From Archaeoglobus sp. JdFR-27 (GTDB lineage: Archaea; Halobacteriota; Archaeoglobi; Archaeoglobales; Archaeoglobaceae): a stretch of DNA of 64,000 bases. The stretch is taken from positions 1-64,000 of the forward strand of contig MTMO01000037.1 of NCBI GenBank assembly GCA_002011235.1, given 5' to 3'. The notes under the pieces were generated by a model, which ran no database searches, was not told the origin of the DNA, and worked only from the letters and a program-made list of their open reading frames with translations. This document shows, in pieces, positions 19,497-20,995 of this stretch (its first letter is position 1; each line of letters starts with the position of its first letter). The position numbers and the translations under genes were made by a program.

Positions 19497-19913
19497 TCAG
19501 GAATAATAAAAGGCGGGAATCTTTGTTGTGTTTTCAAAGAAAAAGGTCGTTCCACTCACATTTATATATACATTGACACTCTGACCGAGATCTATTCCTG
19601 AGAAGTAATTTGTTCCGTTTTCGTTCTCGAAGTAAACCTTGAAAATAGCCTCTTCAAGGCTAACCTTAATGAATTCAATTTTCGAGTCTATTATGCTTAC
19701 GAGTTCATCTTTTATGGGCATCGCACCAAAAAGGAAAAGCTGTAGTTTCTGAAGTGCATCAACATCATAGACCATTCTTATATTAACGGCATCACCTTCA
19801 ACCGTTACGAATACCTCTTTAATTTCTAAATCGAGATTTTGAGCACTTGCTATGGGGATGAAAGTAAGGAGAATGAAAATTGATAAAGCCTTGATGAGCA
19901 ATTTTGAGCGCAT
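19497..19913 (-). CDS. secreted or lipid-anchored hypothetical protein with signal peptide
   Basis: A 138-residue protein. Residues 1-24 are a clear signal peptide (LLIKALSIFILLTFIPIASA followed by Q-N), with a type I cleavage site after ASA. The mature part is a beta-rich domain with alternating hydrophobic residues and several Asn-x-Ser/Thr sites (NGTNYF, NVSGT, NTT), possible glycosylation sites for an external protein. No family recognised. It has its own promoter region upstream (19914-20036). Confidence 0.65.
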   Translation of the reverse strand: MRSKLLIKALSIFILLTFIPIASAQNLDLEIKEVFVTVEGDAVNIRMVYDVDALQKLQLFLFGAMPIKDELVSIIDSKIEFIKVSLEEAIFKVYFENENGTNYFSGIDLGQSVNVYINVSGTTFFFENTTKIPAFYYS

Positions 19914-20036: not shown

Positions 20037-20115
20037 TAATTGGGGTGCCGCCTGCAGTAACAGCTATTCCCGCCGTCACCGTAATAATAGCTATTATTTG
20101 GCACCCCCAATTTAA
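20037..20115. repeat. 79-base structured palindrome
   Basis: A near-perfect inverted repeat encloses smaller palindromes. Outer arms pair TTAATTGGGGTGCC (20036-20049) with GGCACCCCCAATTTAA (20100-20115), differing by one extra C and one extra T. Inside, AGCTATT (20062-20068) can pair with AATAGCT (20086-20092), and AATAATAGCTATTATT (20083-20098) is itself a 16-base palindrome. The element is more GC-rich at its stem than its surroundings. It could be a miniature transposon remnant, a small RNA or a terminator for neither neighbour in particular. It also encodes, in one frame, a short hydrophobic peptide (about 28 residues from GTG 20045) that I do not trust. Confidence 0.6.
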
Positions 20116-20185
20116 TAAGAAATCCAAATAAGAATCCAATAACCCATCCAAAGTATTTTATAGGTCCCTTTTTTGTCCCAACTTA

Positions 20186-20995
20186 ATGAAAAGTTGGGAA
20201 GAGGTAAACAGCAGGAAAATCAAAGATTACATCTCACATTTTGTCAACACCTACAACATACAAAATGTACGTCATATGAACAACAGAAGGTATTAGAGAG
20301 AGCCGCTTGTAGCCTTTGCAGATGCAAACGACCCTTTATTTTCGAGATTGAAAGGAATGATCTCATCAGAACACCTTCTTCCATCTGAGATACTTGAGAA
20401 CTCAAAGAGTGTCATCGTTTATTTCATTCCTTTCAAGAAGGATATCGTTCGAAGTAATTCCAAAGGTATATGTTCATCGAAAGAATGGGCTGAGGCGTAT
20501 GTTCTAACAACTCAAATGATCGTAAAGCTGAATCGATTTTTGTCGGAGAAAATTCAGAAAATGGGATTTAAGATGGCTGAGATTCCACCAACCCATAACT
20601 TCGATAAGGATAAATTGATAAGTAACTGGTCACACAAGCACGTAGCCTACATCGCGGGACTTGGGAAATTTGGTTTACGCAAGATGATTATAACAGAGAA
20701 GGGTTGTTGCGGAAGACTCGGGAGTATTGTGACAGATTTAAAGCTAAAACCAACAAACAGACCAGACAATGAGTTCTGTCTGTATTTCCACGATAAAAGT
20801 TGTATAAAATGTGTTGAAAAATGTCCTTTCGGAGCTCTTGGAATTAATAAGTTTGACCGGAAAAAGTGCTACCAGATCTGTCTTTCCAATGCAGAATTAC
20901 ATTCCAAAATGGGTTATGCTGATGTGTGTGGAAAATGCCTATCGATTGTACCATGCTCGCTGAGGAATCCTGTGATTAGAGGCAAGAAAGATTGA
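20186..20995 (+). pseudogene. QueG-like Fe-S reductase interrupted by an in-frame amber codon
   Basis: The frame from ATG 20186 to TGA 20993-20995 encodes 269 codons with a single TAG at 20294-20296 (codon 37). Before it the peptide is MKSWEEVNSRKIKDYISHF..NNRRY, after it REPLVAFADANDPLFSRLKG, so both sides belong together. Related proteins, from memory, have Tyr-Trp-Arg-x-Pro-Leu here, so TGG to TAG is the simplest explanation. The C-terminal part has two Fe-S motifs (CIKCVEKCPFGAL and CYQIC..CGKCLSIVPC). A TATA box (TTTTATA, about 20157-20163) lies 26 bases before the ATG, so the promoter looks intact. It may be a fresh pseudogene, a sequencing error or a readthrough gene; a TTG at 20348 could start a shortened 215-residue protein. 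Confidence 0.75.

Follow-up and report, generated by a model that had tools for sequence, protein, structure and literature searches.

An in-frame amber codon in a QueG/RdhA-like protein gene of Archaeoglobus sp. JdFR-27 is probably a young nonsense mutation

Does an in-frame TAG codon in an archaeal reductase gene reflect an expanded genetic code or the ordinary loss of a gene? The question is raised by a reading frame in a 64,000-nucleotide stretch of DNA from Archaeoglobus sp. JdFR-27 (referred to here as the window). The original prediction described this frame as an Fe-S reductase gene of 269 codons that is split by one TAG at codon 37, with an intact promoter and no other damage. Translation confirmed the coordinates, the codon number and the length (Table 1). 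The frame reads MKSWEEV...NNRRY*REPLVAFADANDPLF...RGKKD* (asterisks mark stops), continues with REPLVAF after its single internal TAG, and remains open from there down to the TGA; neither a second stop nor a frameshift was present in the 269 codons.

Table 1. Positions in the window of the interrupted frame and of the features associated with it.
Feature	Positions	Strand	Remarks
QueG/RdhA-like 4Fe-4S protein frame, interrupted	20186..20995	+	269 codons; terminator TGA at 20993-20995
In-frame amber TAG (codon 37)	20294..20296	+	TGG (Trp) in 10/10 other Archaeoglobaceae homologues examined
36-residue peptide, the expected product of normal translation	20186..20296	+	predicted N-terminal helix only
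Longest ORF 3' of the TAG	20348..20995	+	possible restart at TTG codon 55, 215 aa; next ATG at codon 58
TATA-like box TTTTATA	20156..20162	+	by sequence inspection; also before the homologue in genome G004
Small-RNA candidate	20042..20107	+	GGGGTGCC...TCCCGCCGTCACCG...GGCACCCC; lies between the reductase gene and the divergent gene 19497-19913

The read-through protein showed 77% identity over residues 5-265 to a homologue from the same genus (genome G004) that has no internal stop. Ten other homologues in the family matched as well; for six of these the match set in midway through the N-terminal part, and for the rest it covered both sides of the TAG. Because the read-through protein matches these copies, sequence comparison indicates that the frame is a genuine gene that has been interrupted and not two ORFs abutting by chance. 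The promoter also appeared intact, as predicted: the TTTTATA element ends 23 bases 5' of the ATG and occupies the same position upstream of the G004 copy. A TATA-like box just 5' of the ATG is the arrangement expected in leaderless archaeal genes. No second intact copy was found in the genome, the other matches being distant paralogues with 26-38% identity.

To establish which codon had been lost, we compared codon 37 with the homologous position in relatives. A close copy was found in 12 of the 55 Archaeoglobaceae genomes searched, the interrupted one included. All ten of the copies examined (L002-L011) were uninterrupted, and all carried TGG at this codon, in the motifs NYWREP (the same-genus copy of G004), TMWREP, NFWREP, DLWRRP (twice), NLWREP, DFWRKP, EFWREP, KIWRDP and DLWREP. 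The internal TAA codons flagged in copies from some other genomes proved to be merely the proper terminator, reached where the match ends at the C-terminus. With an alignment-based query, a broader scan over named genomes yielded 80 loci from Asgard archaea, Desulfobacterota, Clostridia-type bacteria and others; a single-protein query had given no matches. Over 83 homologues, the site was occupied by Trp in 54, Tyr in 26, Phe in 2 and Val in 1, and was thus aromatic in 82 of 83. These comparisons confirmed that the stop is premature relative to intact homologues. The expectation that relatives carry Trp was upheld for all ten family homologues examined, although Tyr is the usual residue in bacterial homologues at a greater distance. 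Since the nearest relatives all have TGG, a single G-to-A transition from TGG to TAG, the change originally proposed as likeliest, is the simplest origin of the stop on these alignments. Derivation of the TAG from a Tyr codon would require a transversion and is at odds with the close relatives.

We consider it probable that the gene, which encodes an accessory QueG/reductive-dehalogenase-like [4Fe-4S] protein, is a young nonsense pseudogene that lost its function through a recent G-to-A change. In this course of events, the conserved Trp codon at position 37 would recently have been converted to TAG, translation would stop after 36 residues, and the gene would be functionally lost. We infer that the organism itself carries the mutation, that it arose by a change from G to A, and that a functional full-length protein is no longer produced.

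The nature of the interrupted protein was examined by profile and structure comparison. Its designation as an Fe-S reductase was right as far as it went, and the fold could be placed in the QueG/RdhA superfamily. A Pfam search with the interrupted copy gave no match, and NCBIfam gave weak, sub-threshold matches to reductive dehalogenase (TIGR02486, 40.8 bits against a curated cut-off of 160.35) and to QueG (TIGR00276, 31.7 bits against a curated cut-off of 200), which place the protein outside both strict families. The family profile, when compared with the PDB, retrieved QueG and one reductive dehalogenase. When the read-through protein was modelled on an alignment of 30 sequences, the mean pLDDT was 93.2, and the predicted model matched epoxyqueuosine reductase 5t8y (E 5e-9) and the reductive dehalogenases 4uqu and 4ras. 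The probability of these matches to the QueG and RdhA families was 1.00, with moderate TM-scores (0.5-0.6). Among 30 homologues, seven cysteines were invariant and an eighth nearly so, in a pattern as for two [4Fe-4S] clusters. The profile matches, the predicted fold and the conserved cysteines together argue that the read-through protein is a member of the QueG/RdhA fold superfamily that belongs to neither strict family; by its fold, it may also bind a cobalamin cofactor. It resembles QueG and RdhA in its weak profile matches to both, its predicted fold and its cluster cysteines, but differs in lying far under both cut-offs, in being much shorter (269 aa) and in sharing only about 20% identity with them. 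The protein belongs to a separate, uncharacterised family that is distributed among Archaeoglobaceae, Asgard archaea, Desulfobacterota and Clostridia-type bacteria. The short QueG/RdhA-like proteins of loci L098-L176 are about 250-270 aa long and have the motifs WRxP, PTHNFD, WSHKHxAY and GCCGRLGS. Conserved neighbours of this short reductase family, sought as a clue to its function, were not seen.

In the predicted fold, the TAG lies between the helix at residues 4-27 and the first strand at residues 41-46. Because almost the whole predicted fold would come after the stop, the 36-residue product is expected to be useless, and no useful fragment is expected from it. A functional shorter protein made by internal restart was considered and judged unlikely: codons 55 (TTG) and 58 (ATG) have no good Shine-Dalgarno match, the strand 41-46 would be lost, and none of the homologues compared starts at or after the restart site. 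With its predicted fold almost wholly missing, the product would probably be functionally lost.

A different outcome would follow if the TAG were recoded as pyrrolysine, a proposal to which we attach practically no probability and in whose favour we found nothing more than a TAG codon in an archaeal host. Stop usage was counted within the window in non-overlapping ORFs of at least 150 aa (n=53). TAG terminated 14 of these ORFs (26%), and in most cases a further stop followed only a few codons later. Because TAG ends so many long ORFs with the next stop close behind, general decoding of TAG is implausible. We also searched the assembly, a 67-contig draft rated 99.7% complete with 3.9% estimated contamination, for pyl genes. 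The best scores were 25.7 bits for PylS (cut-off 178) and 29.6 bits for PylD (cut-off 150), whereas one of 14 control genomes scored above the cut-off in each search, indicating that the search works. No CUA anticodon was found among the tRNAs read, an incomplete inventory that lacks, for example, Tyr and Cys tRNAs and from which a suppressor tRNA could have escaped; a tRNA cut off at the start of contig 52 has the anticodon TCU by loop inspection. Together with the Trp or Tyr of relatives at the site, these results effectively excluded pyrrolysine, in agreement with the doubt expressed in the original prediction. The gene is like pyrrolysine-encoding genes in having an in-frame TAG in an archaeon, but unlike them in that no pyl genes were found, none of the tRNAs read has a CUA anticodon, TAG is a normal stop, and Trp or Tyr occupies the site in homologues. 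The TAG is most likely a product of ordinary genome decay and does not point to an expanded genetic code.

The age of the lesion was estimated from the distribution and divergence of the gene. Only one of the five other genomes of the genus (G004) carries the gene, in intact form; G001, G002, G003 and G005 are without it. The gene is accessory and dispensable in the genus. It sits in a spacer, bounded by the upstream RNA element and a minD-like ATPase gene, that is empty in G001-G003 (loci L038, L040 and L041), and the site is a presence/absence locus. Between the interrupted copy and that of G004, dS was about 1.35 and dN was 0.14. A nine-taxon codon branch model gave omega values of 0.098 for the window branch, 0.181 for its G004 sister and 0.065 for the background; synonymous sites are nearly saturated and these estimates are weakly determined, and omega=1 forced on the window branch was not firmly rejected (2dlnL 3.65). 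From the codon make-up of the gene, a random substitution would produce a stop in 4.5% of cases, and the probability that the frame had acquired no further stop would fall to about 6% after 0.08 neutral substitutions per site. The absence of a second stop or frameshift, the branch dN/dS, which speaks weakly against long neutral drift, and the neutral-decay estimate set against a dS of 1.35 support a lesion that is young relative to the species split, as had been proposed if the gene was a pseudogene. Two substitutions in the interrupted copy, N109T (Asn in 83/83 other homologues) and H165R (His or Asn in 83/83), could reflect slightly longer relaxation or adaptation.

Frames with internal stops that are under purifying selection, with dN/dS below 1, have been reported in bacteria (PMC7918605), and because of this precedent the stop alone is no proof that function has been lost. 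The TAG could be a leaky stop at which readthrough by a near-cognate tRNA yields some full-length protein from a gene still under selection, and purifying selection up to the present is possible on the branch model. We nevertheless regard a leaky stop as highly improbable, since the TAG occurs in one genome and in none of its relatives, and so is not a conserved device, and since TAG is a common terminator in the window. It is just as improbable that the stop is tolerated because low-level readthrough gives enough reductase, that is, as a naturally suppressed amber codon in an archaeon without pyrrolysine.

If the TAG stemmed from an error in the assembly or consensus, or from a minority strain represented in a metagenome-type draft, the main sequence of the organism would have an intact codon; we consider this unlikely, with a small share of the probability. 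The 67 contigs and 3.9% estimated contamination are compatible with such an error, and the remaining frame is intact and selected-looking, just as a one-base error would leave it; on the other hand, there are no Ns or frameshifts near the site, and the adjoining frames are intact. Read as a young nonsense pseudogene, the locus accords well with others known from prokaryotes, with which it shares a single stop, an intact frame and promoter-like region, intact homologues in sister genomes and a dispensable gene. Nothing in the comparison was unusual; the codon struck here encodes a nearly invariant aromatic residue.

The region upstream of the gene contains an unannotated candidate small RNA whose structure is conserved. 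The G004 gene is preceded by a nearly identical copy of this element in spite of the divergence between the genes themselves, and the element was also found where the reductase gene is absent. A covariance model detected 49 copies (L177-L225) in 48 of 55 Archaeoglobaceae genomes, usually one per genome; the remaining genomes among the 119 searched had none, and no copy was found in the other families of the class. Its 8-bp stem (GGGGUGCC/GGCACCCC) was paired in 99.2% of alignment cells, and compensatory U-A to C-G changes, altering both strands of the stem, occurred in 11 distinct sequences, together with one further double change. The conserved core is UCCCGCCGUCACCG, and most copies have a TATA-like box 28-34 bases 5' of the stem. 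A search of Rfam 15 with the element gave no credible match. These features suggest a small RNA that is transcribed on its own and confined to the Archaeoglobaceae. Purely as a guess, its C-rich core, which includes UCACC, might base-pair with Shine-Dalgarno sequences. We rejected the idea of an upstream hairpin that regulates the reductase gene, as the hairpin occurs without the gene and beside other neighbours. According to PMC3432209, Tang et al. (2002) reported nine trans-encoded small RNAs in A. fulgidus on experimental evidence, and the element may be one of the uncharacterised RNAs of that study. G061 was the only genome seen with two copies of the element (G061:C60:2669-2739, L182, and G061:C12:11773-11843, L225); one of them may be a duplicate or contamination.

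The finding is real, was read correctly and is an ordinary one: an accessory reductase gene has been hit by a young nonsense mutation, unless the assembly is in error at this site. The case shows how computational analysis can resolve an in-frame TAG of an archaeal gene as ordinary nonsense, by recovering the lost codon from relatives and by excluding recoding through stop usage and pyl searches. It also draws attention to an uncharacterised QueG/RdhA-like family of anaerobic archaea and bacteria and to the conserved RNA candidate that adjoins the gene.
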